This document shows positions 13,085 through 47,438 of a stretch of DNA of 64,000 bases, piece after piece. The notes under the pieces were generated by a model. That model saw only the letters and a program-made list of their open reading frames with translations. It made no database searches and was not told the origin of the DNA. Numbering within the stretch: the first letter of the stretch is position 1; every line of letters starts with the position of its first letter. Location of the stretch: NCBI GenBank assembly GCA_012839295.1, contig DUNO01000036.1, positions 1-64,000 on the forward strand, given 5' to 3'. The position numbers were made by a program, and so were the translations under genes. Source of the stretch: Clostridiales bacterium (GTDB lineage Bacteria > Bacillota > Clostridia > Lachnospirales > Lachnospiraceae).

Positions 13085-13195
13085 ATGAACCAGCGGCGGC
13101 TTGCCATGGATGCGGCCCCGGCGAGCAGCGTTCTTCCCAATTATGTTTGTGCTGCCTACGGCAGCATGTCGGGAAGGTTGGAAGAAGTAAAATAG
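13085..13195 (+). other. structured spacer with a possible 36-codon ORF
   Basis: GC-rich stretch between spoIIE and tilS. It can fold as two hairpins: GCGGCTTGCC with GGCGAGCAGC (9 of 10 pairs), and CTTCCC...TGCTGCC-TAC-GGCAGCA...GGGAAG. The same bases also read as an open frame from ATG 13085 to TAG 13193-13195, but without a visible ribosome binding site. RNA structure or a small protein are both possible; neither is established. Confidence 0.3.
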
Positions 13196-13197
13196 GT

Positions 13198-13269
13198 GAA
13201 CGAAGGTGGGACCGGGTCCATGCCGGCACGTTCATAGGATTGTGTTGTATAAAGGGCATGGACATTATT
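13198..13269 (+). promoter_or_regulatory. SD-hairpin-start element, copy A (tilS)
   Basis: Shine-Dalgarno-like GAAGGTGGG (13202-13210), then ACCGG, then stem GTCCATGCC (13216-13224) paired with GGCATGGAC (13255-13263), then ATTATT and the tilS ATG at 13270. With the hairpin folded, the Shine-Dalgarno and start codon are 11 bases apart. Related copies lie at 24822-24889 and 28566-28633. Confidence 0.7.
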
Positions 13270-14715
13270 ATGGTTAAAAAAGTATTCGACTATGTAAAGA
13301 AACATCATATGATAAACCAGGGGGATAGGATTGTCGTCGGTGTATCCGGGGGCGCTGATTCTGTCTGCCTTTTGTATGTGTTAAAGGCGCTTTCCCTGGA
13401 AATTCCCTGCACCTTATTGGCGGTGCACGTAAACCATGGAATCCGTGGAGAGGCAGCAGCCGGGGATGAACAATATGTGAAGGAAACCTGCCTGGAGCTG
13501 GGTATCGATTTTTATGCCTTCCATATTGATGTCAGGGGTATGGCCGCAGTGCAGGGCTTATCGGAAGAGGAAGCAGGAAGAAATGCCAGGTACCAGGCAT
13601 TTCTGGAAATATGTAAGAGAAATAAGTGTAATAAAATTGCGGTTGCGCATAATATGAATGATAATGCTGAGACAGTTCTTTTCCATCTGCTGCGGGGTGC
13701 CGGGATGAAGGGCCTTTCCGGCATTGAACCGGTACGCAGCCTAAAAACGGAGGCAGGAAAGGTGCTGCTGGTACGGCCCCTCCTGCAGGTAGAAAGGTAT
13801 GAAATAGAAAATTATCTCAGGGAAGAGGGTATCACCTACCGGACGGATGCCACGAACCTTACGGAGGATTATAGCAGAAATAAGATCCGCAATGTGATAC
13901 TTGCCTATGCGGTAAAGGAAATTAATTCAGGTGCGGTCCGTAATATCAATGAATCTGCCCTGAAAATAGGTGAGGCGCTGGAGTTTATTGATGCCTGTGT
14001 GGCAGATAAATATCCGGGGGTTGTAAGTAAAGAGAAGGATAGTTATTTTATTAAGATAGAGGCGCTGGGAAAGGAAGCGGAGGTTATCAGGAAGGGCCTG
14101 GTCCGCAAGGTGCTTGGGCAGCTGTCCGGTAATCTGAAAGGACTGGAAGCAAAGCATGTGGAGGCTGTCCTTAAGCTTACAAAGAAGCAGGTGGGGAAAT
14201 TAGTCCATTTGCCCCGTGGGATCCTGGCCAGCCGTGAATATGGGTCAATCAGACTATTTAAGAAAGAAGAAACCGCCGAAAAGGAGGCGGGGGAGGGGAT
14301 GTCTCCGATCCGCCCCAGCATCCCGGGAAAGTGTTTTATTCCTCAAAAAGGAAAGTTTTTGGAGACCCAGATATTAAATTACGAAAAAAACATGCCAATC
14401 CCGAAAAACAGTTGTATGAAGTGGTTTGATTATGATAAAATAGAGAATGCTGTTGAAATACGAAATCGTAGGGAAGGCGACTATATCCAGATTAATTCGG
14501 AAGGTGGAAGAAAAAAGCTAAAGGATTTTTTTATTGACCAAAAAATTCCCAAACACCTAAGGGATAGTCAAATTCTGATCGCAGATGGAAGTCATATTAT
14601 GTGGATCCCCTTTGGAGGGGAGCGTATGAGTGAAAGATATAAGGTGGATGAAGCCACCGTAAAAGTACTTTCGATGAAATTGATTGATTTGGAGGAAAAC
14701 AGGAATGACAGGTAA
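13270..14715 (+). CDS. tilS: tRNA(Ile)-lysidine synthetase
   Basis: Joins lysine to the wobble cytidine of tRNA-Ile(CAU) using ATP, changing its reading from AUG to AUA. The PP-loop SGGADSVCLL (about residues 27-36) identifies the N-type ATP pyrophosphatase; the motif HxxNDNAET (AVAHNMNDNAETVLF) and a C-terminal TilS domain ending in ERYKVDEATVKVL follow. 481 residues from the ATG at 13270 is normal; ATG 13258 is an alternative inside the hairpin arm. No good Shine-Dalgarno lies next to either start. It overlaps hpt by 11 bases, as in many Firmicutes. Confidence 0.94.
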   Translation: MVKKVFDYVKKHHMINQGDRIVVGVSGGADSVCLLYVLKALSLEIPCTLLAVHVNHGIRGEAAAGDEQYVKETCLELGIDFYAFHIDVRGMAAVQGLSEEEAGRNARYQAFLEICKRNKCNKIAVAHNMNDNAETVLFHLLRGAGMKGLSGIEPVRSLKTEAGKVLLVRPLLQVERYEIENYLREEGITYRTDATNLTEDYSRNKIRNVILAYAVKEINSGAVRNINESALKIGEALEFIDACVADKYPGVVSKEKDSYFIKIEALGKEAEVIRKGLVRKVLGQLSGNLKGLEAKHVEAVLKLTKKQVGKLVHLPRGILASREYGSIRLFKKEETAEKEAGEGMSPIRPSIPGKCFIPQKGKFLETQILNYEKNMPIPKNSCMKWFDYDKIENAVEIRNRREGDYIQINSEGGRKKLKDFFIDQKIPKHLRDSQILIADGSHIMWIPFGGERMSERYKVDEATVKVLSMKLIDLEENRNDR

Positions 14716-15226
14716 AGTTAAGGAAATGATATCGGAGCTTCAGGTAAACGCGAGAATTAAGGAATTGGCAGAGGAGATCAGCGAGGATTATAAGGGTAAA
14801 GGCATCCATCTGATCTGTATCTTAAAGGGCAGTGTATTTTTTACCTGTGAGCTTGCTAAGAGGCTCACGATTCCGGTAACCATGGACTTTATGTCCGTAT
14901 CCAGCTATGGCAGTGAGACGGTCAGTTCAGGAAGGGTCCGTATTTTGAAGGATTTGGATGAATCTATTCAGGGAAAAGACATATTAATTATAGAAGATAT
15001 TATTGATTCCGGCAACACCCTGTCTTATTTAAAGGAGTTACTTGGGACCAGGGCGCCAAAGTCAATGGAAATCTGTACCTTACTGGATAAGCCGGACCGC
15101 AGGGTTACCAATGTGGATGTTAAATATGTCGGCTTTGTAATTCCGGATGAATTCGTGGTAGGTTATGGACTGGATTATGACCAATACTATAGGAACCTCC
15201 CATTTGTCGGGGTAGTCGGGCAGTAA
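14705..15226 (+). CDS. hpt: hypoxanthine phosphoribosyltransferase
   Basis: Salvages hypoxanthine and guanine with PRPP to IMP and GMP. The PRPP loop is seen as ILIIEDIIDSGNTLSYL (about residues 93-109), with an early LKGS loop and the C-terminal DYDQYYRNLPFVGVV. 173 residues is typical. The start is 14705 because GGAGG lies at 14691-14695 within the end of tilS and the protein then begins as family members do. The tilS-hpt-ftsH order is conserved in Firmicutes. Confidence 0.96.
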   Translation: MTGKVKEMISELQVNARIKELAEEISEDYKGKGIHLICILKGSVFFTCELAKRLTIPVTMDFMSVSSYGSETVSSGRVRILKDLDESIQGKDILIIEDIIDSGNTLSYLKELLGTRAPKSMEICTLLDKPDRRVTNVDVKYVGFVIPDEFVVGYGLDYDQYYRNLPFVGVVGQ

Positions 15227-15312
15227 ATATTAAGCCTTGTATTTAGTTCCGGTAATATAGTAGAATTAGGATAGAGAGCAGCAAGAGAATGCATTAATAA
15301 GGAGGTTGTTTA

Positions 15313-17157
15313 GTGAGAAAACAGATGAAAGGATATGGTTTCTATATCATCATTCTGCTGATTGTGATAGCTACGGTTTATTTATCCCAAAGCTTTGAGT
15401 TTAGCAATTCGGATGAATACTCTTATTCCCAGTTTGTAGATGATATAGACGAGGGGAATGTAAAATCCATTGAGATCAATCCGAATAAGGAGGTGCCGAC
15501 AGGCAGCGTTACAGTTACCCTAACGAGTGATTCGACAAAAACCTTTTATGTACCGGATGTAAAGGACATTGAAAAGCTTGCAGTGGAGAATGACATCGTT
15601 TCCCATATGAATGATGTTCCGCAGGAAAACTGGTTTTTGACCTCAGTACTGCCGTATATTCTGGTATTTATTATTATCATTGTATTATTTTCCTTCCTGT
15701 CCAATCAGGCTTCCATGGGAGGCGGTAACAGCAAGGTCATGAATTTTGGCAAAAGCCGTGCCAAGATGACGACAGAGGAAAATAAAACTACAACATTTAA
15801 GAATGTGGCGGGTTTAGATGAGGAAAAGGATGAATTAAAGGAAATCGTGGATTTCCTTAAATCGCCTAAAAAATATATCCAGGTAGGGGCAAGGATCCCG
15901 AAGGGCGTCCTTTTGGTTGGACCGCCAGGAACCGGTAAGACCTTGCTTGCGAAGGCTGTTGCCGGTGAAGCAGGCGTACCCTTCTTCTCCATCTCAGGCT
16001 CTGACTTTGTTGAGATGTTCGTAGGTGTTGGTGCATCCAGGGTCAGGGATCTGTTCGAGGAAGCGAAGAAGAATTCACCCTGTATCGTATTTATTGATGA
16101 GATTGATGCTGTAGCAAGGAGAAGAGGCACCGGGCTTGGTGGCGGTCATGATGAGAGGGAGCAGACCTTAAACCAGTTGCTGGTGGAGATGGATGGCTTT
16201 GGTGTCAATGAAGGCATTATCGTTATGGCAGCTACAAACCGTGTGGATATCCTGGATCCGGCTATCCTGCGTCCGGGACGCTTTGACCGTAAGGTTACCG
16301 TTGGCCGCCCGGATGTTAAGGGCAGGGAAGAGATCCTGGCAGTACATGCAAAGGGAAAGCCCTTAGGGGATGATGTTGACCTAAAGCAGGTTGCACAGAC
16401 AACGGCGGGCTTTACGGGAGCAGACCTTGAAAACCTGTTAAATGAGGCGGCTATCGGGGCGGCCAGGGAAAACCGGAGCTATATTAATGATGAGGATATT
16501 AAGAGGTCTTTCATCAAGGTTGGAATCGGTACCGAGAAAAAGAGCAAGGTTATTACAGATAAAGAAAAAAGAATTACGGCATATCATGAGGCGGGGCACG
16601 CAATCTTGTTCCACAAGCTTCCTGATGTGGGTCCGGTATATACTATTTCCATTATTCCTACGGGTAACGGAGCAGCCGGCTTTACCATGCCGCTTCCGGA
16701 AAAGGATGAGATGTTCCATACAAAGGGCAGGATGAGACAGGAGATTATCGTAGATCTTGGCGGAAGGGCAGCAGAAGAAATGGTTTTTGATGATGTCACT
16801 ACGGGAGCTTCCCAGGATATCAAGGTTGCAACCAAGGCGGCAAGGGCGATGATTACCCGTTACGGCTTCTCAGAGGCAATCGGTATGGTGAATTATGAGA
16901 ACGATGATGATGAAGTATTCATCGGAAGGGATCTGGCCCATACCAGAAGCTATAGTGAAAGCGTGGCGAACCGCATTGATGATGAGGTCCGTAAGATCAT
17001 TGATGAATGCTATGCAGAGGCTAAGAGGATTCTGCTGGAGAATAAGGATGTCTTAGAAGCTTGTGCCGACCTTTTGATTAAGAAGGAACGGATTACAAGG
17101 GAAGAGTTTGAAGCCTTGTTTGAGGATAAGGCTGCTGCTGGCTCTGGTCAGGTATAA
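15313..17157 (+). CDS. ftsH: ATP-dependent zinc metalloprotease FtsH
   Basis: Membrane-anchored AAA+ protease that removes misfolded membrane proteins and regulators. Two membrane segments (about residues 7-26 and 113-135) flank a short extracellular part. The AAA module has Walker A GPPGTGKT, Walker B FIDEID and the second region of homology ending RPGRFDR; the protease domain carries the zinc motif HEAGH. 614 residues is normal. The start is GTG at 15313, 7 bases after GGAGG. It closes the sporulation block. Confidence 0.97.
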
Positions 17158-17317
17158 GGCATGGATAGATAATTGTGCAATATGACGAAAAAAAGAGCAA
17201 AATTTTGTGAAGTTTGTGCACACTTATTTATAGAAGCGTGTTATACTATGTTTGTAAACCCCAATACATTATATAGTTTTTGCTACACCCCCATAAGTAA
17301 CAAAAATACCTTCTCCG

Positions 17318-17348
17318 AAAAAGGGCAGTCCCATAACTGCCCTTTTTT
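17318..17348 (+). terminator. terminator after ftsH
   Basis: GGGCAG/CTGCCC hairpin flanked by A and T runs. It lies 160 bases after ftsH. TATACT at 17242-17247 could also start a short RNA that ends here, but no -35 at proper spacing was found. Confidence 0.75.
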
Positions 17349-17523
17349 ACGTTTAAAAAATTGTGGGATTTGAGTGTTAAAAGCTCCTATTCATCTTTTT
17401 AAGTATTTGTTGGCTTCTGACACCCAAATCTGGTGTAGTTCCCGCGATGACGTAAAAGAATAAAAATAACGACCGGGGATGATTTGCTTGGCCGGCCGTT
17501 AATATAAAATTCTTATTTGTTAT

Positions 17524-17594
17524 TTGCAGTAACGTAGATAGGGTAGTGGTTTACATACTTGCAGTAACGTAGGTAGGATTAGTGGTTTACATAC
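17524..17594. repeat. 35/36-bp direct repeat, two copies
   Basis: Two adjacent copies (17524-17558 and 17559-17594) of TTGCAGTAACGTAG...TTTACATAC differing at a few positions. They lie between the ends of ftsH and the reverse-strand DUF2156 gene. A weak hairpin (ACGACCGG/CCGGCCGT, about 17470-17500) just before may terminate that gene. Confidence 0.8.
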
Positions 17595-17639
17595 AATTAT
17601 TATAGCATGGTGATGAGTGTGTGTTTTATGATATATTAG

Positions 17640-18530
17640 CTACGATACTAGGACACAGTTTTTATCGAGTAGCTGTATGGGGTGGTAGGATAGTTTTGAG
17701 GTACGCAGACCAGGGTCACCGACGTCCTCTTCCCGGTTGATGTACTGGATTCCATAGGAATTCATCATGTCGCTGGAGAATTCCTTTACAATTATTTGGT
17801 AGGAGCCCTCATATTCCCGGTTTGCTTTTTCGATATGAGTGTATAGTGTATCCTTTACGATTTCTCCAACCGACATGGCGACGATATTACCGTCTACTTC
17901 GACAAAGCCGCCGGGGAGACCGAATTTTTCAATAAGGGGAAGCAGCTCCAGGGTTCTAGCCAGCTCTTCCTGTGCAAGAGAGGCTTCCTTTCCATGGTGC
18001 TTTTCGAAGTCCATCAGGAAGTCGATAACCCGTGGCAGGTTCTCCTTTGTAATTCGCCTATAGCTGTAATCCGGATAGAGCTTTTTAAACTTATTAATAT
18101 GGTTTCTTTGTCCGCTGTACCTTCTGCCGGCCATATTTGCCAGGTCGGTGGCATTATACAGATAGTCAGCCCAGTCACGGCTTGGGGGACATGGGATGCT
18201 GCCGTTAAAATCATTTACCAGGATCTTGGCCGCTTCCTCAGGAATAGTGCAAAACCACAAAGGGATCTGATGTTCCCGGGTATATTCCTTGAGTGCATCC
18301 ATGGCTTTTTTCAGGGAGCCTCCGCCAATGGGCAGGGTGAAAGCGGTGTGGTCGATGAACTTTACTTTAAACATGAGCATGTCATCATAGATGGCAAAGT
18401 GGGACTGATAAAAATCCCTCCACATATATAAAGCACCGATGGTATAATCGCTGGTGCGGCTGATTTTATATTTAAAAAATTCAGCGGTTTTTAAAATGTT
18501 GTCTGCGTTAATTGGTTCAAATGTAAGCAT
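17640..18530 (-). CDS. DUF2156 protein, GNAT-like acyltransferase
   Basis: Belongs to the DUF2156 family, related to the catalytic part of phosphatidylglycerol lysyltransferase (MprF) and built of tandem GNAT-type acyltransferase folds. Seen: LMFKVKFIDHTAFTLPIGGG in the N-terminal half and GNIVAMSVGEIVKDTLYTHIEKANREYEGSYQIIVKEF in the C-terminal half, the acyl-donor-binding type of strand-loop. 296 residues is the usual length for the stand-alone family, which lacks membrane segments. The start at 18530 is fixed by GGAGGATACTT directly before ATG; an upstream in-frame extension to 18653 is part of the structured leader. Substrate unknown. Confidence 0.82.
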   Translation of the reverse strand: MLTFEPINADNILKTAEFFKYKISRTSDYTIGALYMWRDFYQSHFAIYDDMLMFKVKFIDHTAFTLPIGGGSLKKAMDALKEYTREHQIPLWFCTIPEEAAKILVNDFNGSIPCPPSRDWADYLYNATDLANMAGRRYSGQRNHINKFKKLYPDYSYRRITKENLPRVIDFLMDFEKHHGKEASLAQEELARTLELLPLIEKFGLPGGFVEVDGNIVAMSVGEIVKDTLYTHIEKANREYEGSYQIIVKEFSSDMMNSYGIQYINREEDVGDPGLRTSKLSYHPIQLLDKNCVLVS

Positions 18531-18859
18531 AAGTATCCTCCATAGTGATTGTATTGCAATCACTTTATTCATGTCAGGTGAATCAACTGATTCATCTATT
18601 TGGGTCCTTTCGTCCTCCTTGACCCATTTTGTGCGATGCTTTAGTCCTTGCATCCTTTATCATTCAATCTAACGATCATTTGGCCCTTAGGCCACGGGGT
18701 GTCGGATGTGAAATGACCTTCATTTCACACTAAGCTCTTGTTCTGACGGGATAGCTGGAATCAATGGAATACCAGAAGGGCTGTTCGACCTTTTTTGATA
18801 AAATAATTTGGTTTGCGGCATATAAACTATATTATATCATTTGATTTCTGTCTAGACAA
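18531..18859 (-). promoter_or_regulatory. long structured leader and promoter of DUF2156 gene
   Basis: On the reverse strand TTGTCT (18854-18859) and TATAAT (18831-18836) are 17 bases apart, giving a 5' untranslated region of about 290 bases. It holds at least five hairpins: 18707-18729 (perfect 10-bp stem TGTGAAATGA), 18681-18694, 18601-18626 (TGGGTC/GACCCA enclosing AAGGAGG), 18579-18594 and 18544-18564 (AGTGATTG/CAATCACT, ending just before the Shine-Dalgarno). No known riboswitch was recognised. Confidence 0.55.
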
Positions 18860-19026
18860 CATCAAATTCTTCTTAGTTGATATCATTCCACGCAGGTATC
18901 TTGCTTATCCATCCAGGGTAAGGGATATATGAATATAATATTAAATTTTACGAATAGGGTAGCTTGTGAATAATTAATTGTGTTAGAATGAAAAAGTGAT
19001 GGAAAAGGGTAGGATTTAGGCTGTGA

Positions 19027-19148
19027 GGTGAATCTGAGTGGATCCATATCCACCTGGGCTTGCCTTTAACCTCCCGTAATTGCCAAGTTCAGGCAATCAC
19101 GGGAGGCCCGGTCTGCGCCCAGATGGATATGGATCCACTCAGATCACC
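19027..19148. repeat. 122-bp imperfect palindrome
   Basis: Outer arms 19027-19059 and 19117-19148 form 31 standard pairs with one bulged A (19031) and one non-standard pair (C19053/A19123). A symmetric 10/10 internal loop leads to an inner 15-bp stem (19070-19084 with 19092-19106), again with one non-standard pair, and a 7-base loop. Both non-standard pairs are A-C on the + strand but G-U on the reverse strand. No T run follows. It lies between two divergent genes. Confidence 0.85.
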
Positions 19149-19261
19149 GCGTTAGTGTAAAGAAGCTTTTTGTCGGGGGAGTTTGTAAATAATAATTTAA
19201 TCTTGTAAAAAATAATTTAAATTTGGGTATGTGAGTGTATCCTAGGTAGAATTGAGGAATC

Positions 19262-21031: not shown

Positions 21032-21099
21032 CCTTATGAAAGCTGCGCCGGTTTTTGGAAACGGACTATCATCCGATGAAAAGGAAAGGGGAGCTACAT

Positions 21100-21933
21100 T
21101 TGACAAAGAAGAGAATATCAGCAAAAGAGAAAGAACGCACGCAACGGATTATAGAAGCGCTTAATCAGGAATATACCATAGAGTACCGGAGCTTTTTGAT
21201 AGCTGAGACACCCTGGCAGCTGTTGATTGCTACTATTTTGAGCGCACAGTGTACGGATGAACGGGTGAACCTTGTGACAAAGGATTTATTCCAAAAATAC
21301 CGGAGTCTTGAGGATTTTGCAAATGCGGACCAAACGGAGCTGGAGCGTGATATCCATTCCACCGGGTTTTACCGCAATAAGGCGAAGAATATCATAGCCT
21401 GTGCAAAGCAGCTGATAGAATTACACAATTCCGAGGTGCCAAATGATATTGATGCCCTGACAAAGCTTGCCGGGGTGGGAAGGAAAACGGCGAATGTCAT
21501 CCGGGGCAATGTCTATAAGGAGCCCAGCATTGTAGTGGACACCCATGTAAAACGGATATCGAAGCGGCTTGGCTTTACCAAGGAAGAGGATCCGGTAAAA
21601 ATTGAATTTGAATTAATGGACCGGTTGCCCAGGGAACAATGGATTTTGTACAATTTGCAGATCATTACCCATGGAAGGAGCATCTGCACGGCAAGAAACC
21701 CGAAGTGTGAGGAATGCTTCTTGAAGGAAGATTGCGTCTATTATAATACACAGAAGAAAAAGATTGAAAGAAAAGCACCTCCCAAGGTTGAAGGAAAAGC
21801 ACTTTCTAAGGTTGAAAAAAATACATTTTCCAAGGTTGAAAAAAATGCATTTTCCAAGGTTGAAAAAAACGCATTTTCCAAGGTTGAAAAAAACGCATTT
21901 TCCAAGGTTGAAAAAAACACATTTTCAACCTAG
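21100..21933 (+). CDS. nth: endonuclease III with octapeptide-repeat tail
   Basis: DNA glycosylase/AP lyase that removes oxidised pyrimidines. The helix-hairpin-helix LAGVGRKTANVI carries the catalytic lysine, the aspartate is in VVDTHVKRIS, and the 4Fe-4S cluster motif C-x6-C-x2-C-x5-C is CTARNPKCEECFLKEDC. The core ends near residue 219. A tail of seven near-identical octapeptides (consensus KVEKNAFS) follows, encoded by 24-bp DNA repeats, which is not normal for the family. The start is taken as TTG 21100, 6 bases after AAAGGGGAG; an ATG at 21076 has no comparable site. Confidence 0.9.
   Translation: MTKKRISAKEKERTQRIIEALNQEYTIEYRSFLIAETPWQLLIATILSAQCTDERVNLVTKDLFQKYRSLEDFANADQTELERDIHSTGFYRNKAKNIIACAKQLIELHNSEVPNDIDALTKLAGVGRKTANVIRGNVYKEPSIVVDTHVKRISKRLGFTKEEDPVKIEFELMDRLPREQWILYNLQIITHGRSICTARNPKCEECFLKEDCVYYNTQKKKIERKAPPKVEGKALSKVEKNTFSKVEKNAFSKVEKNAFSKVEKNAFSKVEKNTFST
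21760..21927 (+). repeat. 24-bp tandem array inside nth
   Basis: Seven 24-base units starting at 21760, 21784, 21808, 21832, 21856, 21880 and 21904, consensus AAGGTTGAAAAAAA then GCATTTTCC. The first two are diverged and the last five nearly identical. The final unit ends as a perfect inverted repeat, AGGTTGAAAA with TTTTCAACCT, directly before the stop. Confidence 0.92.
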
Positions 21934-22053
21934 AAAAAAGTCTTGCCGGAAAGGATAAAGTGTCATAGAATATTCCTTACAGCAAAGGGTCTTTTGTGGC
22001 ATAATTCCAGTATAGGATAAGGGATAGCGGATATACTATAGAAGCAAATGCGG

Positions 22054-22665
22054 CTAGAAAAACTTAATTACCTTTAAGTCCTCGATTAGCTTCTCCCGGT
22101 CATGTACCGATAATTGGGCTACGGTTTGAATCAGGGTATCAATTTTTTCCGGCATGTCCTGCTTTCTATAAATCTCTGCAAGGAGCTTATAGGTATTTGT
22201 TACGTCAGATCCCAGGGTCACGGCATATTCAAGGATGGCCTTGGCGTCTTGTATATCACCGTTATGGTAAAGGCGCTCAGCCCATTTTTGCAGTATGCTC
22301 ACAAGGATGGTATAATTATTGTCATACTCCGTAAGAAGGGAAATATTGGCGACACCATATTTATTCTTTAAATCCGTATTCGTATACCCGGACAGATTTA
22401 ATATTTTTTTATCTGCTAAGCCGAGAATGGTATCGCGGTAAGAATTTATGGTTCCGTCCGCCTTATCCTCCATCGGCAGCAGCCCTGGATTGAGGGTAAT
22501 ATAGTCAAGGCCTGAAATATCGGCGCGGCGTACAAGGTTGGATTTGGTTTCCCGGTCCCAGAAGGTGTCGGCAGTAGTTTTTTCCTTTTTGTAAGATTTC
22601 TTTATTTCATACTGCAGCCATAGGATAAAGATGATTATGAGAGCCGATATTATTGGAAGAGGCAT
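22054..22665 (-). CDS. membrane-anchored TPR-like protein, unknown function
   Basis: 203 residues with one N-terminal membrane segment (MPLPIISALIIIFILWLQYEI). The C-terminal half is helical with repeat-like spacing (ILQKWAERLYHNGDIQDAKAILEYAVTLGSDVTNTYKLLAEIYRKQDMPEKI) resembling tetratricopeptide repeats, which usually bind proteins. The architecture suggests a cytoplasmic scaffold held at the membrane. It is a single gene facing the end of nth. No function can be assigned. Confidence 0.7.
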   Translation of the reverse strand: MPLPIISALIIIFILWLQYEIKKSYKKEKTTADTFWDRETKSNLVRRADISGLDYITLNPGLLPMEDKADGTINSYRDTILGLADKKILNLSGYTNTDLKNKYGVANISLLTEYDNNYTILVSILQKWAERLYHNGDIQDAKAILEYAVTLGSDVTNTYKLLAEIYRKQDMPEKIDTLIQTVAQLSVHDREKLIEDLKVIKFF

Positions 22666-22794
22666 TGAAAAGCACCACCTTTCTTAGTATGGAAGATTAA
22701 ATATCACATTATAAAACAACTTATTTAAAAGATGGACCAGCAGTCTGGTCCGCCAAAAATGAACGCTGCCGGTGCGGCAAAAAGGAGGTATCCC

Positions 22795-22899
22795 ATGAAT
22801 TTTCATAACAGAAAAACCCAGAGAATCATTTCAACCGTAATTGTTGTAGTAATGGTCTTATCCTTTGTAGCTTCCTATGTTTTAAGCGTGATTAATTAG
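22795..22899 (+). CDS. 34-aa single-pass membrane protein
   Basis: Small ORF: a short basic start (MNFHNRKTQRI) then one membrane helix (STVIVVVMVLSFVASYVLSVIN). The ribosome binding site AAAGGAGG is excellent and correctly spaced. A hairpin (GGACCAG/CTGGTCC, about 22736-22753) lies upstream. The layout resembles DUF4044-type small membrane proteins of Firmicutes, but it is too short for a firm family call. Confidence 0.6.
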   Translation: MNFHNRKTQRIISTVIVVVMVLSFVASYVLSVIN

Positions 22900-23070
22900 A
22901 TCACCTGGATCTGTTTATCCCCCGCCATCTGCGATCTTTTAATCAAATATATACAATTGGGGGGCAAAAGTCAATGAAGGAAAGAATATCTTGAATAATC
23001 TTAGGTTTATGATAAAATAAAAAGAAGTTACATAAAAATACAACCGATAATTATTTCAAGGAAATATGTA

Positions 23071-23223
23071 TGGCGCAAATGCAGCGCTTTTATCGGAGGT
23101 TAATGGACAACTTCTGGTAATCTATATTATTGAATCAAAACCATGATTCAATAATCGGGATGCACGGCGCAAGTGCGGCGCCTTTTATGAGAAGTTAAAG
23201 TGCAACTTCTCATAACTTATATT
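23071..23223 (+). repeat. modular multi-hairpin repeat, copy 1
   Basis: Order of parts: GGCGC-type hairpin, TTTTAT, CTTCT-type hairpin, (T)AATCTATATT, a variable hairpin (ATTGAATCA/TGATTCAAT), AATCGGGATGCA, GGCGC/GCGCC hairpin, TTTTAT, GAGAAGTT/AACTTCTC hairpin, ATAACTTATATT. The same parts in the same order occur at 27691-27825 with different bases in the variable stem. It ends about 28 bases before the VanW gene. Confidence 0.85.
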
Positions 23224-23250
23224 TATTGTTAATAGAAAAGGAGGATGAAT

Positions 23251-24783
23251 ATGGGCAGGAATAGAAAGCTATTTTCAGCGATATTATTTTTATCGCTTTC
23301 CCTATTTATGGGGAATGCTATGTATGCATCTGCTGAAGAAGAGAAGACGATATGCCAAGGAGTAGTAATAGATGAGGTGGATGTCAGCGGGATGACAAGG
23401 GCTCAGGCGGAAGAGGCCGTAAAGGGCTTTGTTGATACCCTGCGGGCAAAAGGGATTGCTGTCAGGGTACACGATAATACGGTATATGCGACCTTGGGCG
23501 ATCTGGGGTATACATCGGATTACAGCGGTATTGTAGAGGAGGCCCTGGATCTGGGTCAGTCCGGTAACCTGATTAAGCGGTATAAGGATTTAAAGGATAT
23601 CGAACAGGGAAGCTATACCTACTCCCTGGAATTTACCTATGATGAGGAAAAGATCCGGGAGCTCGTCTCAAAGGAAATCAGTTCCTATAATATAGAACCG
23701 GTGAATGCTTCGGTGAAAAGGGAGAGCGGAGATTTTGTCTATACGGATCATGTTATAGGCAGCAAGGTAAATGTGGATAAGACGGTGAAATTAATAGAAG
23801 ATGCAATTAATAACTGGGACCGTCAGGATATCTTAGTGGATGCAGTTGTAGATGAGGATATGCCAAAGTACACCATGGAGGATGTTAAAAAGTGCAATAC
23901 CCTGCTTGGTTCCTATACAACAGAGTATACCACCTCTGCGCAGGGCAGGGCAGCGAACCTGGCAAACGGCGCAAGGCTGATTAATAATACAGTGCTTTAT
24001 CCGGGGGATGTTTTTAACTCCTATGATAAGCTTACACCCTTTACGAAAGAAAATGGATATTTTACTGCAGGCGCATACCTGAATGGAATGGTAGTGGATA
24101 GTGTGGGCGGAGGAGCCTGCCAGGTTACCACTACCCTGTATAATGCTGTATTGGAAGCGGAGCTGGAGGTAGTGGAACGCTTTCCCCATTCTATGACCAT
24201 TGCCTATGTGGATTTATCCAGGGATGCGGCAATTGCCGGAACCTATAAGAATTTCCAGTTTAAGAATAACACGGATGCACCGATTGTGGTTGAGGCAACG
24301 ACATGGGACCGGAGAATTACCTTTAAGCTCTGGGGGCATGAGACCAGGGATGAAAATAGGAAGATTAAGTATGTAACAGAGATACTTTCCAAAACAAATC
24401 CTCCGGCAGACGTTATTAAGAAGGATCCGACCCAGCCTACCACCTTCCGTCAGGTAACACAGACGGCCCATATTGGTTACAAGGCTAAGCTATGGAAGAT
24501 TGTATATGAGAATGGCAAAGAGGTAAGCAGGGAAGTGGTTAACACCAGCAACTATGCAGCAGCGCCCCAATATGTAACAGTGGGTACGAAGGAGCCGGAA
24601 GAGGAGACAGATCCGGATACCCCTCCGACAGGAGATCCAAAGAATCCGACCAAGACACCGACGAAAGCGCCGACTAAGACACCGACAAAGGCGCCAACCG
24701 ATGATTCAGGAACCGATGATTCAGGGGATGATAATTCAGAGGCCGATAACCCGGGCTGGGACTATACGGAAATAGAAGAATAA
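23251..24783 (+). CDS. VanW-family secreted protein
   Basis: Exported or membrane-anchored protein of the VanW/YoaR family. A signal peptide of about 28 residues ends at MYASA-EE. A domain resembling the putative peptidoglycan-binding type 4 domain follows (residues about 30-200), then the VanW domain (about 210-345) with YPGDVFNSYDKLTPFTKENGY and GGGACQVTTTLYNAVLEA. The tail is rich in Pro, Thr, Lys and Asp (KTPTKAPTKTPTKAPT repeats). Cell-wall association is a fair inference; the biochemical role is unknown. ATG 23251 is preferred over 23245, which directly abuts GGAGG. Confidence 0.9.
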   Translation: MGRNRKLFSAILFLSLSLFMGNAMYASAEEEKTICQGVVIDEVDVSGMTRAQAEEAVKGFVDTLRAKGIAVRVHDNTVYATLGDLGYTSDYSGIVEEALDLGQSGNLIKRYKDLKDIEQGSYTYSLEFTYDEEKIRELVSKEISSYNIEPVNASVKRESGDFVYTDHVIGSKVNVDKTVKLIEDAINNWDRQDILVDAVVDEDMPKYTMEDVKKCNTLLGSYTTEYTTSAQGRAANLANGARLINNTVLYPGDVFNSYDKLTPFTKENGYFTAGAYLNGMVVDSVGGGACQVTTTLYNAVLEAELEVVERFPHSMTIAYVDLSRDAAIAGTYKNFQFKNNTDAPIVVEATTWDRRITFKLWGHETRDENRKIKYVTEILSKTNPPADVIKKDPTQPTTFRQVTQTAHIGYKAKLWKIVYENGKEVSREVVNTSNYAAAPQYVTVGTKEPEEETDPDTPPTGDPKNPTKTPTKAPTKTPTKAPTDDSGTDDSGDDNSEADNPGWDYTEIEE

Positions 24784-24821
24784 TATAGGTTGGAAGGCTA
24801 AAAGAAACAGAATTAATAAGC

Positions 24822-24889
24822 GGAAGGAGGGCCGGGTCCATGCCAGAACTTTTATGGTTAGTTGTGCGGTGATGGGCATGGACATAAGC
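24822..24889 (+). promoter_or_regulatory. SD-hairpin-start element, copy B
   Basis: Shine-Dalgarno GGAAGGAGG (24822-24830), then GCCGG, stem GTCCATGCC (24836-24844) paired with GGCATGGAC (24875-24883), then ATAAGC and ATG at 24890. As in copy A, the folded spacing from Shine-Dalgarno to start is 5 plus 6 bases. The element also contains a 10-codon ORF (24840-24872) ending in TGA. Confidence 0.7.
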
Positions 24890-25873
24890 ATGAACCTTGG
24901 AAAAGTATCTGAAACGGTCCTGAAAAGATCGGTACTCAATCAAATAAAGCATAGGCGCGGGGAGGTTTTAGTAGGCCCGGGTATAGGAGAGGACTGCAGT
25001 GTCCTGGCAGTTGCGGAGGACGAGGTCCTTGTAATATCGACGGATCCTATTACGGGGACAGTCCAGGATATCGGTACACTTGCCGTGCATATCACGGCCA
25101 ACGATATTGCCTCCAATGGGGCAGAGCTGATTGGAATTATGCTGACCATCCTGTTGCCGGAGGGAACCTCAGAGGCGGACCTAAGAGCAATGATGCAGGA
25201 AATCGAAGGTGTATGCTGTAAACTCAATATGGATGTTATTGGAGGACATACTGAGATCACGAAAGCAGTCCATCAACCAATTATAACCGTGACCGGCGTG
25301 GGGAAGATGAAGCGCCGGGAAGTAATTAAAACTGCCGGTGCAAGGCCGGGACAGGAAATAGTAATGACCAAATGGGCCGGCCTGGAGGGCACGGCAATTA
25401 TAGCGGCTGCCAAAGAGGAGGAGCTTAAGACAAAATACAGCTCCAGCTTCATCGAAGGGGCGAAAAGACTGATGGATTATCTCAGTGTAGTTCCTGAAGC
25501 GATGGTCGCCCGCTCCTACGGTGTGACCTCCATGCATGATGTTACGGAAGGAGGAGTCTTCGGAGCCTTATGGGAAATCGGGGCGGCTTCCAAGGTAGGC
25601 TTGGAAGTGGATCTAAAGAAGATTCTTTTAAAGCAGGAAACAGTGGAAATCTGTGAATTCTATGATATTAACCCATACATGCTGATTTCCAGCGGATGTA
25701 TGCTGATAATAACCGATAAAGCGAATCAGCTGGTGGATCAGCTAAGGGCAGCGGGGATTGCCAGCGCTGTAATCGGACGGATTACGGAAGGAAATGACCG
25801 TATTATCATAAATGAGGATGAAAGACGTTACCTGGAGCCGCCAAAGAGCGACGAGCTTTATAAAGTAATGTGA
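24890..25873 (+). CDS. AIR-synthase-related protein (HypE/ThiL/PurM fold)
   Basis: ATP-binding enzyme of the PurM superfamily, which activates a substrate oxygen or sulfur with ATP. Visible: VGPGIGEDCSVLAV with ISTDPITGTV (N-terminal metal/ATP segment), ITANDIASNGAELIGIMLTILLP, DVIGGHTEITKAV and MHDVTEGGVFGALWEI in the C-terminal half, a HypE-like signature. It lacks the catalytic Cys/Sec start of SelD and the C-terminal Cys tail of true HypE, so hydrogenase maturation is not proven. In-frame ATGs at 24854, 24872 and 24878 exist; 24890 is chosen for its place after the hairpin element. Confidence 0.8.
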   Translation: MNLGKVSETVLKRSVLNQIKHRRGEVLVGPGIGEDCSVLAVAEDEVLVISTDPITGTVQDIGTLAVHITANDIASNGAELIGIMLTILLPEGTSEADLRAMMQEIEGVCCKLNMDVIGGHTEITKAVHQPIITVTGVGKMKRREVIKTAGARPGQEIVMTKWAGLEGTAIIAAAKEEELKTKYSSSFIEGAKRLMDYLSVVPEAMVARSYGVTSMHDVTEGGVFGALWEIGAASKVGLEVDLKKILLKQETVEICEFYDINPYMLISSGCMLIITDKANQLVDQLRAAGIASAVIGRITEGNDRIIINEDERRYLEPPKSDELYKVM

Positions 25874-25883
25874 TGTTATGGTT

Positions 25884-25968
25884 AAAAAAGGAGGCCAAAG
25901 CCTCCAAAAAAAAAGGAGGCCAAAGCCTCCAAAAAAAAGGAGGCCAAAGCCTCCAAAAAAAAGGAGGC
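25884..25968 (+). repeat. tandem Shine-Dalgarno hairpin array before lrp gene
   Basis: Three perfect hairpins GGAGGC-CAAA-GCCTCC (25890-25905, 25915-25930, 25939-25954), separated by runs of 9 and 8 A. After a further 8 A comes a fourth, unpaired GGAGGC (25963-25968), 5 bases before the start region. Periods are 25, 24 and 24 bases. The array also reads in frame with the gene from an ATG at 25878. Confidence 0.92.
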
Positions 25969-25973
25969 TTGTG

Positions 25974-26456
25974 ATGAGGGAAAAAATCTTGGCAGCGATT
26001 GATAAAAACAGCAAAATACCCGCCGCAGACCTGGCTATCATGCTGGGAACGACGGAGGAGGAGGTTGTTTCTACAATCAGGCAATTGGAAGAGGAATCGG
26101 TTATCTGCGGATATCCCACGCTGATTAATTGGGATAAGGTAGAGTGTGAAAGGGTTACCGCATTGATTGAATTGAAGGTGACACCACAGCGTGGTCTTGG
26201 ATTTGATAAAATAGCGGAACGAATTTATCAGTTTGACGAGGTACAGTCGGTTTATCTCATGTCCGGCGGTTTCGACCTGACAGTGATACTGGAGGGAAGA
26301 ACCATGAGGGAGGTTGCGAGCTTCGTATCGGAAAAGCTGGCTCCAATGGAGGCTATCCTGAGCACGGCAACACATTTTGTATTGAAGAAATATAAGGAGC
26401 ATGGCCTGCCCCTGGTACAGACCAAGCATGATGAAAGGATGCTGATTACGCCTTGA
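25974..26456 (+). CDS. Lrp/AsnC-family transcriptional regulator
   Basis: 161-residue regulator: an N-terminal helix-turn-helix (residues about 1-50, MREKILAAIDKNSKIPAADLAIMLGTTEEEVVSTIRQLEEE) and a RAM ligand-binding domain (IAERIYQFDEVQSVYLMSGGFDLTVILEG). Such proteins respond to amino acids as octamers. ATG 25974 sits 6 bases after the free GGAGG of the hairpin array; a longer form from 25878 would add 32 basic residues made of repeat. It overlaps the aminotransferase gene by 4 bases (TTGA), suggesting that it regulates amino-acid metabolism. Confidence 0.92.
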   Translation: MREKILAAIDKNSKIPAADLAIMLGTTEEEVVSTIRQLEEESVICGYPTLINWDKVECERVTALIELKVTPQRGLGFDKIAERIYQFDEVQSVYLMSGGFDLTVILEGRTMREVASFVSEKLAPMEAILSTATHFVLKKYKEHGLPLVQTKHDERMLITP

Positions 26457-27616
26457 GAAACCCATTAGCTAAAGTAGTTGTTGATATGCCGCCATCCGGC
26501 ATACGTAAATTTTTTGATATTGTCAGTGAGATGAAGGATGCGATTTCCCTCGGTGTGGGGGAGCCTGATTTTGATACACCCTGGCACATCCGGGAGGAGG
26601 GCATCTATTCCCTGGAAAAGGGAAAGACCTTTTATACCTCGAATGCGGGCCTGAAGGAATTAAAGCAGGAGATCTGCAGCTATTTGAAAAGAAGGTTTGA
26701 CCTGGATTATGACTATAATACGGAGACGATGGTAACCGTCGGAGGCAGCGAGGCCATTGATATCGCCATGCGCGCCATGCTGGAGCCGGGGGATGAGGTT
26801 TTGATACCCCAGCCCTGCTATGTGTCCTATCATCCCTGTGCGGTTCTGGCAGGAGGGAAACCGGTAGTTATTGAGCTAAAGGGTGAAAATGATTTCAAGC
26901 TGACAAGGCAGGAATTAATTGCTGCCATCACGGATAAAACAAAGATCCTGGTTCTGGCATTTCCGAATAATCCGACGGGAGCCATTATGGATTATGAGGA
27001 TTTGAAGGATATCGTTGACGTTATCCTGGAGCATGACCTTATTGTCATTTCAGATGAAATTTACTCTGAGCTTACATATGGCAGGGGGCATGTATCCATT
27101 GCATCCTTTCCCGGGATGAAGGAAAGGACCATAGTGATAAACGGCTTTTCCAAGTCCTATGCCATGACTGGCTGGAGGCTGGGATATGCGGCTGGTCCGG
27201 CGATGATCATTGAACAAATGGTGAAAATCCATCAATTTGCTATTATGTGCGCCCCTACAGCAAGCCAATATGCAGGCGTTGAAGCCTTAAAGAACGGTGA
27301 TCCCGATGTGGAAATGATGCGTGATGCTTATGATAAACGCCGCAGGTATGTAATCCACTCCCTGCGGAGTATGGGGTTGGAGTGCTTTGAGCCTTATGGT
27401 GCATTCTATGTGTTCCCATGCATTAAGAGCCTGGGCATGACATCGGAGGAATTCGCAACAAAGCTTCTTCAGGAAGAAAAGGTTGCAGTGGTTCCTGGAA
27501 CCGCATTTGGTGAGTGTGGAGAAGGCTATTTAAGAATATCCTATGCATACTCTATTGAGAATTTAAAGATTGCCCTGGAGAGAATTGAAAAATTTGTGGC
27601 ACGGCATAAAAAATAG
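26453..27616 (+). CDS. pyridoxal-phosphate aminotransferase, class I/II
   Basis: Fold type I aminotransferase of the aromatic/PatA-like group. The cofactor lysine is in INGFSKSYAMTGWRLGYAAGP, the substrate-carboxylate arginine in GYLRISYAYS, and NNPTGAI and SDEIYSELTY are the other pocket motifs. 387 residues is normal. It begins with TTG overlapping the stop of the Lrp gene, with AAAGGA upstream, so the two are translationally coupled. Exact amino-acid specificity cannot be read from sequence alone. Confidence 0.93.
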   Translation: MRNPLAKVVVDMPPSGIRKFFDIVSEMKDAISLGVGEPDFDTPWHIREEGIYSLEKGKTFYTSNAGLKELKQEICSYLKRRFDLDYDYNTETMVTVGGSEAIDIAMRAMLEPGDEVLIPQPCYVSYHPCAVLAGGKPVVIELKGENDFKLTRQELIAAITDKTKILVLAFPNNPTGAIMDYEDLKDIVDVILEHDLIVISDEIYSELTYGRGHVSIASFPGMKERTIVINGFSKSYAMTGWRLGYAAGPAMIIEQMVKIHQFAIMCAPTASQYAGVEALKNGDPDVEMMRDAYDKRRRYVIHSLRSMGLECFEPYGAFYVFPCIKSLGMTSEEFATKLLQEEKVAVVPGTAFGECGEGYLRISYAYSIENLKIALERIEKFVARHKK

Positions 27617-27645
27617 GATACGAATAAAAGTAAAGAATAAAAGGT

Positions 27646-27686
27646 CAGCCTGCCAGCTGTATTGTAGTTAGCTGCAGGCTGTTTTT
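27646..27686 (+). terminator. terminator after aminotransferase gene
   Basis: CAGCCTG...AGCT paired with AGCT...CAGGCTG, followed by TTTTT. Confidence 0.8.
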
Positions 27687-27690
27687 ATGC

Positions 27691-27825
27691 GTTTTATCAG
27701 AAGCTAAAAAACAACTTCTGATAACCTATATTACAGGAACAAAAAATGTTCCTGTAATCGGGATGCACGGCGCAAAAGCAGCGCCTTTTATCAGAAGTAA
27801 AAATCAACTTCTGATAACCTATATT
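27691..27825 (+). repeat. modular multi-hairpin repeat, copy 2
   Basis: Same modules as 23071-23223: CAGAAG/CTTCTG hairpin, ATAACCTATATT, variable hairpin (here ACAGGAAC/GTTCCTGT), AATCGGGATGCA, GGCGC/GCGCC hairpin, TTTTAT, CAGAAG/CTTCTG hairpin, ATAACCTATATT. Stem bases differ from copy 1 on both sides so that pairing is kept. Confidence 0.85.
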
Positions 27826-27856
27826 GATGACAATTGTGGGAATAATTCGAAAAAAA

Positions 27857-27929
27857 TGTCGAAATGGGCTCTAATGGTATGATATCTTGACTATAATAGT
27901 TGAAATAACGGTGGGATATGTGTTACAAT
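27857..27929 (+). promoter_or_regulatory. cheX promoter with a Spo0A-box-like heptamer
   Basis: TTGAAA (27900-27905) and TACAAT (27924-27929) with an 18-base spacer form a good sigma-A promoter about 90 bases before cheX. TGTCGAA at 27857-27863 matches the Spo0A box perfectly, but a 7-mer can occur by chance. Confidence 0.5.
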
Positions 27930-28018
27930 AGGGGACAAAGGGGCATAGAAACCAATACCTATGTCTCCCCGAGACGAAATAGAAAAATCCTTCTTTAAAA
28001 GGATTAGGAGGTGTTGTA

Positions 28019-28489
28019 ATGGCCAGTGTTAATGTTGATCATATTAATCCATTCTTAATGGCATCAACAAGAATTTTGAAGGATATGTGCTTTATCGATG
28101 TCAAGATTGGTAGGCCATATATTAAAAACCCAGCATTTTTTGAAGATACCTTGATTATTTTGATTGGTTTTACCGGTGAAATGAAGGGGCAGGCGATGAT
28201 TGCCTTCAGCAATGAGGTTGCCTGTGACATTGCTTCAAAAATGATAATGATGCCTATCACTGTTATGGATGATTTGGCTAAGAGTGCCATAAGCGAATTA
28301 GGTAATATGATCATGGGCAATACGGCAACCATATTCTCCACCAAAGGGATTGCAATTGATATCACACCTCCAACAGTAGCAAACGGATCCATGTCCTTTA
28401 CAACGAATTATGCATCCAATATCTGCGTTCCCTTGAATTATGACGAGAATAAAACAATTGAAATCAATATAGCTATAAAAGGTGATTAG
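28019..28489 (+). CDS. cheX: CheX-like chemotaxis phosphatase
   Basis: Member of the CheC/CheX/FliY family that removes phosphate from CheY-P. 156 residues with a single E-x2-N active-site motif in ISELGNMIMGN (about residues 91-101); CheC has two such motifs, so CheX fits. FTGEMKGQAMIAFS and the C-terminal MSFTTNYASNICVPL are family features. AGGAGG precedes the ATG. It stands alone, away from other chemotaxis genes, though two chemoreceptors are in the window. Confidence 0.85.
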   Translation: MASVNVDHINPFLMASTRILKDMCFIDVKIGRPYIKNPAFFEDTLIILIGFTGEMKGQAMIAFSNEVACDIASKMIMMPITVMDDLAKSAISELGNMIMGNTATIFSTKGIAIDITPPTVANGSMSFTTNYASNICVPLNYDENKTIEINIAIKGD

Positions 28490-28565
28490 TTCACCTTTTT
28501 TCATTGTGTGGTAAAGGACAGGGACATATATAGGGAAAAGGGTGAAGGAAATAAAATTAATAAAC

Positions 28566-28633
28566 GAAGGGGGAACCGGGTTCATGCCAGCACTTTCATG
28601 GCATTTTGTGCGGTAAGCGGCATGGACATAATT
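28566..28633 (+). promoter_or_regulatory. SD-hairpin element, copy C (trmL), start lost
   Basis: GAAGGGGG (28566-28573), AACCGG, stem GTTCATGCC (28580-28588) with GGCATGGAC (28619-28627; one U-G pair), then ATAATT. The position that is ATG in copies A and B is ACG here (28634-28636), and trmL instead uses its own AAGGAG further downstream. A 10-codon ORF (28584-28616) ends in TAA at the same place as in copy B. Confidence 0.65.
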
Positions 28634-28660
28634 ACGATATAAAAAGGAGCAGGTTAGATT

Positions 28661-29158
28661 ATGAATATTGTATTATTGGAGCCTGAGATACCTGCCAATA
28701 CAGGTAATATCGGCAGAACCTGTGTGGCTACAGGGACCAGGCTGCATCTCATTGAACCGATGGGGTTCCGCCTGAATGAGAAGGAGATTAAGAGGGCGGG
28801 TCTTGATTATTGGAAGGACCTTGACGTTACAGTTTATGATAATTACCAGGACTTTCTGGACAGGAACCCAAATGCCAGGATTTATATGGCTACCACCAAA
28901 GCGCAGCATTCCTATACCCATGTGGAGTATGACCCGGACTGTTACATTATGTTTGGCAAGGAGAGTGCCGGGATTCCGGAGGAGCTGCTGCTGGCCAATA
29001 AGGAGAACACGATCCGTATACCTATGGTCGGAGACATCAGATCCTTGAATTTGGGGAATTCAGTAGCGATTATTCTATACGAGGCTTTGAGACAGAATAA
29101 CTTCGAAGGGATGCGTATGGAGGGAAAGCTTCATAGGTATAGCTGGGATGAAGCGTAG
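28661..29158 (+). CDS. trmL: tRNA (cytidine(34)-2'-O)-methyltransferase
   Basis: SPOUT-class methyltransferase that adds a methyl group to the wobble ribose of tRNA-Leu. The family start MNIVLLEPEIPANTGNIGRTC, the FGKESAGIPEELL segment and the knotted SAM site IRIPMVGDIRSLNLGNSVAIILYEALRQ are all present. 165 residues is normal. The Shine-Dalgarno AAGGAG is 11 bases before the ATG. It is followed directly by a strong terminator. Confidence 0.93.
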   Translation: MNIVLLEPEIPANTGNIGRTCVATGTRLHLIEPMGFRLNEKEIKRAGLDYWKDLDVTVYDNYQDFLDRNPNARIYMATTKAQHSYTHVEYDPDCYIMFGKESAGIPEELLLANKENTIRIPMVGDIRSLNLGNSVAIILYEALRQNNFEGMRMEGKLHRYSWDEA

Positions 29159-33755: not shown

Positions 33756-34206
33756 TACAGTAAAGGCCTTTCCTATATTTTATAATTAATTAAGCTTATT
33801 ATTGGTGAAACCTATAATTGCTTAAGCCTCCCGTCACTTAAGTTTAGGATTACTTAAGTTTAGGGTAACTTAAGGGGTGAAAACTGGCTGTTTTAAAGAA
33901 AATAACAGCTACCTCTATTTTACCTTATGTCGAAGGAAAATAAAACATAAAAATAAGGAAATTATTTGTGTACTTCCTATGGGGCAGGCGGCACGGAATC
34001 CCTGATTGCGGCAGATGTTTTTTGTCCAAGAAGTTTCAGTGGATTATTTTATGGTTCTATGGTAATATAGGTTATTAGAAGTTGTTTTAGTACATACCTT
34101 AGAACGAGAAGTTATTTGTTTACCATAGTTTACCGCTTAGTGCTTACAATGAATTCTTTACAATTAATTCATAATATGTTCATATGTAAGTTGTATAATA
34201 AATCTT
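33756..34206. other. mutS2/HtrA-like divergent spacer
   Basis: Repeat-rich non-coding region. About 33836-33875 shows short direct repeats of ACTTAAGTTTAGG. At 34064-34090 there is a degraded reverse-strand copy of the modular repeat (AATATAGGTTAT plus AGAAGTTG). No gene was found. Confidence 0.5.
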
Positions 34207-47392: not shown

Positions 47393-47400
47393 AAAATGCA

Positions 47401-47438
47401 GGCCATCAAAATTTGAAAGGCACGGGTATAAATAAGGG
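47401..47438 (+). repeat. partial copy of the 94-bp repeat before hypA
   Basis: GGCCATCAAAATTTGAAAGGCACGGGTATAA-type 3' half of the element seen at 4084-4177 and 6405-6498, ending at the hypA start codon with a few extra bases. The first hairpin is missing. Confidence 0.6.

Follow-up and report, generated by a model that had tools for sequence, protein, structure and literature searches.

Three related elements in the window

The stretch analyzed here (the window) comprises positions 1–64,000 of contig DUNO01000036.1 (GenBank assembly GCA_012839295.1) from a Clostridiales bacterium, hereafter the host. It contains three copies of a short element that combines a Shine–Dalgarno sequence (SD) with the two arms of a hairpin stem and lies 5′ of tilS, of an AIR-synthase-related gene and of a trmL-like gene, respectively. 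An initial annotation of the sequence had described these elements, and all of the components it listed were recovered where it had placed them: the SDs, the 9-bp arms, the interior of about 30 nt and the 6-nt spacer. As it had also reported, the start position of the third copy reads ACG, an SD of its own precedes the trmL-like gene, and the sole arm difference of this copy still pairs (U–G). The features are as follows:

13174–13265, + strand: element copy 1 (family 1), 5′ of tilS; nhmmer/covariance-model copy C40:13174–13272, with the 3′ boundary set by analogy with element-free sites
13203–13210, + strand: internal SD of copy 1, AAGGTGGG
13216–13224, + strand: 5′ arm of copy 1, GTCCATGCC, from its position in the sequence and the covariation of the family
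13255–13263, + strand: 3′ arm of copy 1, GGCATGGAC
13270–14715, + strand: tilS, whose ATG lies 6 nt 3′ of the stem; open reading frame (ORF) with Pfam PP-loop and TilS_C
24794–24885, + strand: element copy 2, 5′ of the AIR-synthase-related gene; the element-free ortholog in genome G012 reads GGAGATA AAGC ATG
24823–24830, + strand: internal SD of copy 2, GAAGGAGG
24836–24844, + strand: 5′ arm of copy 2, GTCCATGCC
24875–24883, + strand: 3′ arm of copy 2, GGCATGGAC
24890–25873, + strand: AIR-synthase-related gene; ORF with Pfam AIRS and AIRS_C, the same ATG being used as the start in relatives
28538–28629, + strand: element copy 3, with ACG at the ATG position; the trmL-like gene has its own downstream SD, AAAAAGGAGCAGG
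28567–28574, + strand: internal SD of copy 3, AAGGGGGA
28580–28588, + strand: 5′ arm of copy 3, GTTCATGCC, with a GTTC change that gives the U–G pair
28619–28627, + strand: 3′ arm of copy 3, GGCATGGAC
28661–29158, + strand: trmL-like SpoU methylase gene (trmL being the label of the initial annotation); ORF with Pfam SpoU_methylase

The three copies make up a 94-nt direct-repeat family (D3), the identity to the middle copy being 65% and 78%. In each of them the arms are 30 nt apart and are followed by 6 nt and then by ATG 13270, ATG 24890 or ACG 28634. The pattern GGGTYCATGCC-N20..50-GGCATGGACAT has three matches in the window, compared with none across 100 shuffled windows. The true 5′ starts of the elements (13174, 24794 and 28538) are located about 24 nt upstream of the positions first annotated, whereas the 3′ end, as judged from the corresponding sites in relatives, is about 4 nt 5′ of the ATG. 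Note that both stem arms contain an AUG, by symmetry, and that each internal SD is also located 9 nt upstream of the AUG contained in the 5′ arm. When the Rfam models were run against the window, one tRNA alone reached its gathering score, and nothing was found at E ≤ 5 over 24700–25000.

A dispersed family at start codons

A covariance model (R1) was built from 37 host copies (alignment A1) and used to search the host genome, with 150 candidates scored, so that the match counts are lower bounds: there are at least 94 matches at E ≤ 10 and at least 84 at E ≤ 1e-4, three of the 94 (E 0.012, 0.013 and 4.5) being left out of later analysis. The element is about 92 nt long, or 112 nt or more when the loop carries extra sequence; this extra sequence, of 20 nt or more, is often a small palindrome, and the commonest long form is 20 nt longer. 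The flanks of the host copies are mostly unrelated, and one locus (C14) holds three copies in tandem. Both arms were placed in 89 host copies; in 69 of these, an open frame begins with an ATG 3–16 nt downstream, 60 times at 6 nt. Frames were counted as open if they ran for at least 60 codons, or for 20 or more without a stop before the fetched sequence ended. The genes concerned, as read from their sequences, resemble tilS, murG, clpC, rapZ, tadA, trmB, a diadenylate cyclase gene and others. The covariance-model search thus reveals a dispersed family located mostly at start codons. The dispersed copies, the unrelated flanks and the element-free sites described below agree with the earlier idea of a mobile or duplicated start module, but the start codon itself belongs to the gene and not to the module.

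Two observations concern the surroundings of these copies. One of them (G000:C22:74376–74475, L021) can be read in frame within the N-terminus of an anti-sigma-factor-like gene, with an upstream ATG AAT GAT and no stop by eye. A third repeat (..TTTGTGCTGCCTACGGCAGCATGTCGGG) is found directly 5′ of several copies of this family and of a second one (see below), as if elements piled up at the same starts; it is present at about 13120–13173 in the window and at C6:205900, C34:11521 and C18:81993 of G000.

For 21 host proteins, the N-terminus was used as a query against the closest relative (G012) and a more distant one (G029), the script leaving the start regions of three G012 genes and one G029 gene unplaced. 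Eleven of the 12 start regions read in G012 lack the element, the remaining one, that of a hydrogenase-type gene, having it too; in G029 the element is absent from all 13 genes read (150 nt upstream of each, one partly masked). The junctions are readable for five genes, namely murG, clpC, rapZ, a phosphatase-like gene (C11:48346) and, on the 3′ side alone, the window gene at 24890 (C40:24794): the relative displays an SD, a short spacer and the ATG, and the host displays the same SD or a remnant of it, the element (AAGG...GGACAT), four bases and the same ATG. The four bases preceding the ATG are identical in host and relative for two genes (AACT and AAGC), show one change for two others (GAAT/AAAT and AAGT/AGGT) and differ by two in murG (ACAC/ATGC); four is the best fit for the number of native bases retained. 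This comparison of occupied and empty sites shows that the insertion falls in the gap between the gene's own SD and the ATG, displacing the native SD by about 100 nt. By eye, the two ends of the element (AAGGTTGAAAG and GGCATGGACAT) show no inverted-repeat relationship, and no target-site duplication is visible at the four junctions readable on both sides, where a 1-base duplication would not be distinguishable.

The family extends beyond the host. A pattern scan of a genome contig collection returned Ruminiclostridium sufflavum (two places), R. hungatei, a Herbinix metagenome-assembled genome (MAG), a Lutispora MAG and one chance place. The Herbinix MAG is, by its identical coordinates, G012, which is listed in the same genus as the host; the chance place is a Chitinophagaceae match (L148), judged so as the SD is absent and the frame ends after 4 codons. 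Matches were found in three of 99 relatives' genomes, host counted. Among 61 distinct matches obtained in a separate search, one truncated by the end of its contig was dropped. An even draw of 391 Clostridia genomes, for which 12 candidates per genome were scored under strict filters, gave at least 11 genomes with matches at E ≤ 0.001, host counted, including R. sufflavum, R. hungatei and Lutispora. In another draw, of 393 genomes, seven had matches at E ≤ 1e-5, none additional to those already found. In the seven remaining genomes of the first draw, which had played no part in model building, 39 of 47 copies are placed at an open frame's ATG, in 36 cases exactly at the model end. A larger Ruminiclostridium set (G127 and G161) provided 94 matches, of which 70 were examined and 67 used.

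If the native SD is displaced by the insertion, a trace of it may persist just 5′ of the element. An SD-like stretch is indeed found there in 40/69 host copies, 14/17 Lutispora copies, 12/16 R. hungatei copies and 3/13 R. sufflavum copies, compared with 17, 1, 1 and 2, respectively, at a control position 40 nt further up. Such stretches are common in most groups and near the control level in R. sufflavum, a pattern that age-dependent decay of the displaced native SD would produce.

Stem, spacing and the route to the start codon

With an SD defined as a site of −6 kcal/mol or better, the internal SD is present in 66/69 host, 14/17 Lutispora, 11/13 R. sufflavum and 3/16 R. hungatei copies, as well as in 64 of the 67 Ruminiclostridium copies (G127 and R. 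sufflavum). In the host, it is stronger at gene starts than in the other copies (−10.8 versus −7.4 kcal/mol; 0/5000 permutations). The distances flanking the stem are nearly fixed in Ruminiclostridium: 5 or 6 nt separate the SD from the stem in 61/66 copies (sd 0.8) and 6 nt separate the stem from the AUG in 50/67 (sd 0.9), whereas the loop ranges from 11 to 52 nt (sd 5.8 nt). The linear distance from SD to AUG is too long, with a median of 60 nt and a range of 40–81 nt in 66 Ruminiclostridium copies and a range of 56–133 nt in the 69 host copies; folding would leave a gap of 11–12 nt in 53 of the latter. In Ruminiclostridium, the comparison of diverged copies thus shows retention of the SD, the stem and the spacings, and not of the loop nor, in R. 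sufflavum, of the native SD.

These features suggest that the element is a non-autonomous mobile element that probably rebuilds the ribosome-binding site (RBS) destroyed by its own insertion, by means of a bridging hairpin like those of T4 genes 25 and 38. The proposed sequence of events is the following: (i) the element, of about 92 nt, inserts between the native SD and the start codon, leaving some four native bases before the ATG, as the comparison with relatives shows; (ii) it brings a new SD, usually 5–6 nt before the 9-bp stem, whose far side ends 6 nt before the AUG; (iii) formation of the stem in the mRNA would bring this SD, located about 60 nt upstream, to within about 11–12 unpaired nt of the AUG; (iv) a single 30S subunit could then engage SD and AUG together, the residual gap being as in T4 gene 25. 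The near-fixed distances on either side of the stem, the free length of the loop and the frequent lack of a nearby SD all fit a hairpin that unites SD and AUG.

Conservation of pairing points in the same direction. When arms were placed by sequence alone (3 of 151 copies had no recognizable arm), 93.0% of the arm cells were paired in 148 copies, versus 90.4% after the 3′ arms had been shuffled within genomes (0/1000); in the 67 Ruminiclostridium copies, the values are 90.5% and 86.2% (0/2000). The arm pairs vary with the family: GUCC/GGAC in the host, UUCC/GGAA in R. hungatei, GCCC/GGGC in G407 and GACC/GGUC in G185. A 29-row cross-family alignment (A2) gives a covariation score of 0.180 versus 0.094 for shuffles (0/500); its rows were selected for at least 8/9 pairs, a 6-nt spacer and a 26–33 nt loop, so that its percentage of paired positions is biased. 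Hence the arms of homologues do covary, and the bridging put forward in the initial annotation is supported by this covariation together with the spacings and the free loop length, the bridging step itself being deduced from them.

Vertically inherited insertions provide a further view. Comparison of the proteins downstream of 63 Ruminiclostridium copies identified eight orthologous insertions in G127 and R. sufflavum (68–95% protein identity), at adk-, gatB-, minC- and ftsE-like genes among others, whereas about 0.3 would be expected by chance (p 2e-10, assuming 4000 genes). The SD, the arms and the spacing are kept in all eight pairs, while the loops differ in length and cannot be aligned by eye. 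What weighs most in the ortholog evidence is that SD, arms and distances have persisted. Compensation within the pairs is only suggestive: six two-sided and six one-sided arm changes retain pairing. In the gatB gene of G161, a better arm pair was missed by the sequence-only arm finder.

Several results weigh against hairpin bridging. In the orthologous pairs, 12 arm positions are paired in one partner only, and native arms form 128/144 pairs, compared with 123/144 when arms are exchanged between orthologs. The RNAalifold covariation term is small on the host alignment (−0.33), and the predicted stem probability is moderate, with a mean of 0.62 in the host (above 0.5 in 45/69 copies) and of 0.33 in G012. 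The folds of the three window copies are just 1.4–1.9 sd below those of shuffles, and the real fold is better than the shuffle in 45/70 cases. Stem pairing does not differ between the host gene-start copies and the 20 others (0.932 versus 0.917, p 0.28); part of the conservation may therefore serve mobility or reflect recency. Moreover, both search models (R1 and R2) contain the SD and the ATG, which biases the matches towards carrying both. Finally, some copies depart from the common layout: in the main R. hungatei burst (13 copies of a recent subfamily) the internal SD is missing and the 3′ arm carries GGGAGG at its base, G185 reaches −6 kcal/mol in 3/6 copies alone, using purines more distant from the stem, and the single copy of G319 has neither SD nor start. 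The main R. hungatei and G185 copies may work differently or poorly.

The similar pairing of gene-start and other copies, like the small cost of exchanging arms between orthologs, would be explained if the hairpin were kept for mobility, e.g. as a transposase binding site, with translation relying either on the displaced native SD or on the weak purines found at the 3′ arm base (AAAGGG..ATG, about 13 nt). R. hungatei fits this scheme, with an SD near the ATG in 12/16 copies and, as mentioned above, an SD just 5′ of the element in as many. Elsewhere an SD close to the ATG is rare (0/17 Lutispora, 1/13 R. sufflavum, 13/69 host and 7/67 copies of the larger Ruminiclostridium set), so that the earlier statement that no good SD lies nearer holds for most of the family and fails for those 13 host copies. 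In addition, use of the native SD is difficult to reconcile with its near-control frequency in R. sufflavum, and a role in mobility alone accounts neither for the internal SD being stronger precisely at gene starts nor for arms and spacing being retained at vertically inherited sites. We consider this explanation quite improbable.

The AUG of the 5′ arm raises another issue, since its distance from the internal SD (9 nt) is ideal. This SD could serve the arm AUG. The short peptide then made, which in the host would often be MPALSWRFVR, would end near the gene ATG, where ribosomes would re-initiate, and the hairpin would merely block independent starts. We therefore looked for a stop of the arm-AUG frame within −30..+12 of the ATG and compared it with two control frames. 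Such a stop is found in 32/47 short copies of the host, versus 20 and 17 for the controls, and in three of the four other R. hungatei copies, versus 3 and 0. In the main R. hungatei group, 10/12 copies have a stop near the ATG in one frame, but it is not the arm-AUG frame (0/12). There is no consistent excess in the long-loop host copies (8/22 versus 4 and 9), R. sufflavum (5/13 versus 5 and 5), Lutispora (9/17 versus 2 and 14) or the larger Ruminiclostridium set (34/64 versus 24/58 and 31/60). Furthermore, the arm AUG is missing from 18/67 Ruminiclostridium copies, five of which have GTG instead, and the reading frame is poorly protected from indels: 19 of the 47 short host copies are off the usual loop length, only one of them by a multiple of 3, and the common long form differs by 20 nt. 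On the basis of stop positions and indels, we rejected a coupled upstream ORF as a feature common to the family, the short host copies and the R. hungatei groups excepted, and regard translational coupling as an unlikely general explanation. The presence of an AUG in both arms would also allow an initiation hop, in which the initiator tRNA would be positioned on the arm AUG and the ribosome would jump to the gene AUG; as the arm AUG is incompletely conserved (absent from the same 18/67 copies), this bypass was rejected and appears very improbable.

A second family and known systems

The window also contains copies of a second family, whose termini are similar to those of the first:

4084–4171, + strand: second-family copy; the ATG 4 nt later opens only 6 codons
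6405–6491, + strand: second-family copy, also with similar termini, followed 4 nt later by ATG 6496, the start of an S4-domain gene

A relic of this family is present at 47391–47429, and a second-family-like stretch is found 5′ of tilS in G012. In the host genome, the second family has at least 41 matches (40 candidates scored), several of them at contig ends, and it contains palindromes. Its end, GGCAYGGRYRT followed by 4 nt and ATG, is placed as in the first family. Thirteen of 30 loci have no recognized 3′ end; among the 17 that do, ten precede the ATG of an open frame, nine of them at 4 nt. The 3′ signature common to both families, GGCAYGGRYRTNNNNATG, has 79 occurrences in the host genome versus one for a reversed control, and at least two of 20 places inspected are within ordinary genes (L318 and L334). 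It is conceivable, if still doubtful, that Clostridia harbor a class of start-codon-targeted mobile elements, with at least two families that have similar ends (AAG[GT]TTGAAAGAAA ... GGCAYGGRYRT + 4 nt + ATG), different interiors and a common machinery recognizing the SD–AUG region, and that tens of hairpin-bridged RBSs have been seeded by them and fixed at essential genes.

Other repeats were noticed in the window. Positions 5087–5203 hold an array of repeated SD palindromes, made of 23-bp units in tandem (AGAAAAGGAGGACAAATCCTCCT) that all contain an SD, directly 5′ of ATG 5204 of a MazG-like ORF (named by eye); a run of AAGGAGTAAAA-type units is similarly found 5′ of a tlyA-like gene in G012 (L258). 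At 25878–25970, 24-bp repeats with GGAGG/CCTCC (AAAGGAGGCCAAAGCCTCC) are in frame as KKRRPKPP repeats that open a regulator-like ORF, and at 21760–21927 a 24-bp tandem repeat gives a KVEKNAFS-type repeat at the C-terminus of an endonuclease III-like ORF (named by eye). A further dispersed repeat with inverted copies (AACTTCTGATAACCTATATT; CGGGATGCACGGCGCAA..GCGCCTTTTAT) is present at 23101–23223, 27689–27825 and 34062–34088.

Leader-peptide systems and other coupled short ORFs place an SD and a short frame ahead of a gene. The first-family element resembles them in this respect, but here the frame and the stop position are not common to the family. The inserts found in Magnusiomyces mitochondria are mobile. 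Like these bypassed inserts, the element would be made harmless at the level of translation; unlike them, as they are described in PMC5009743 (within coding sequences, and hopped), it precedes the AUG and brings initiation signals. The closest parallel for the bridging is the split RBS of phage T4: according to PMC3014915, a hairpin cuts the SD–AUG distance from 27 to 11 nt in gene 25 and from 22 to 5 nt in gene 38, and destabilizing the structure reduces initiation. The element likewise has a conserved helix between SD and AUG, albeit with a moderate predicted stem probability, that would shorten the effective distance, from about 60 to 11–12 nt. It differs from the single phage genes in being dispersed at tens of host genes and in having long loops of free length. 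Miniature inverted-repeat transposable elements (MITEs) and the Correia, BOX, RUP and RPE repeats are, like the element, short, multicopy, structured and gene-adjacent. In the available parts of the papers describing them (PMC10969869, PMC3049150 and PMC2229807), they are not presented as inserting between SD and start codon and rebuilding the SD; the element, for its part, displays by eye no terminal inverted repeat or target duplication. In a literature search conducted on titles and abstract openings, with subscription journals and preprints mostly outside its reach, no element inserting between SD and start codon was recognized. Split RBSs and small mobile repeats are each known. We rate an element that enters the gap between SD and start codon and would rebuild the site as apparently of a new kind, its translation step being deduced, because no such element was found in that search and two MITE-defining features are absent by eye.

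The spacer between SD and AUG should rank among the places least tolerant of insertion, which raises the question of how a mobile element locates this gap. If hairpin bridging is true, the split RBS would no longer be a T4 curiosity but a general feature of some Clostridia, and a single genome would offer dozens of natural variants with which the joint reading of SD, helix and AUG could be tested. SD predictors confined to the vicinity of the start codon will label such genes as SD-less.

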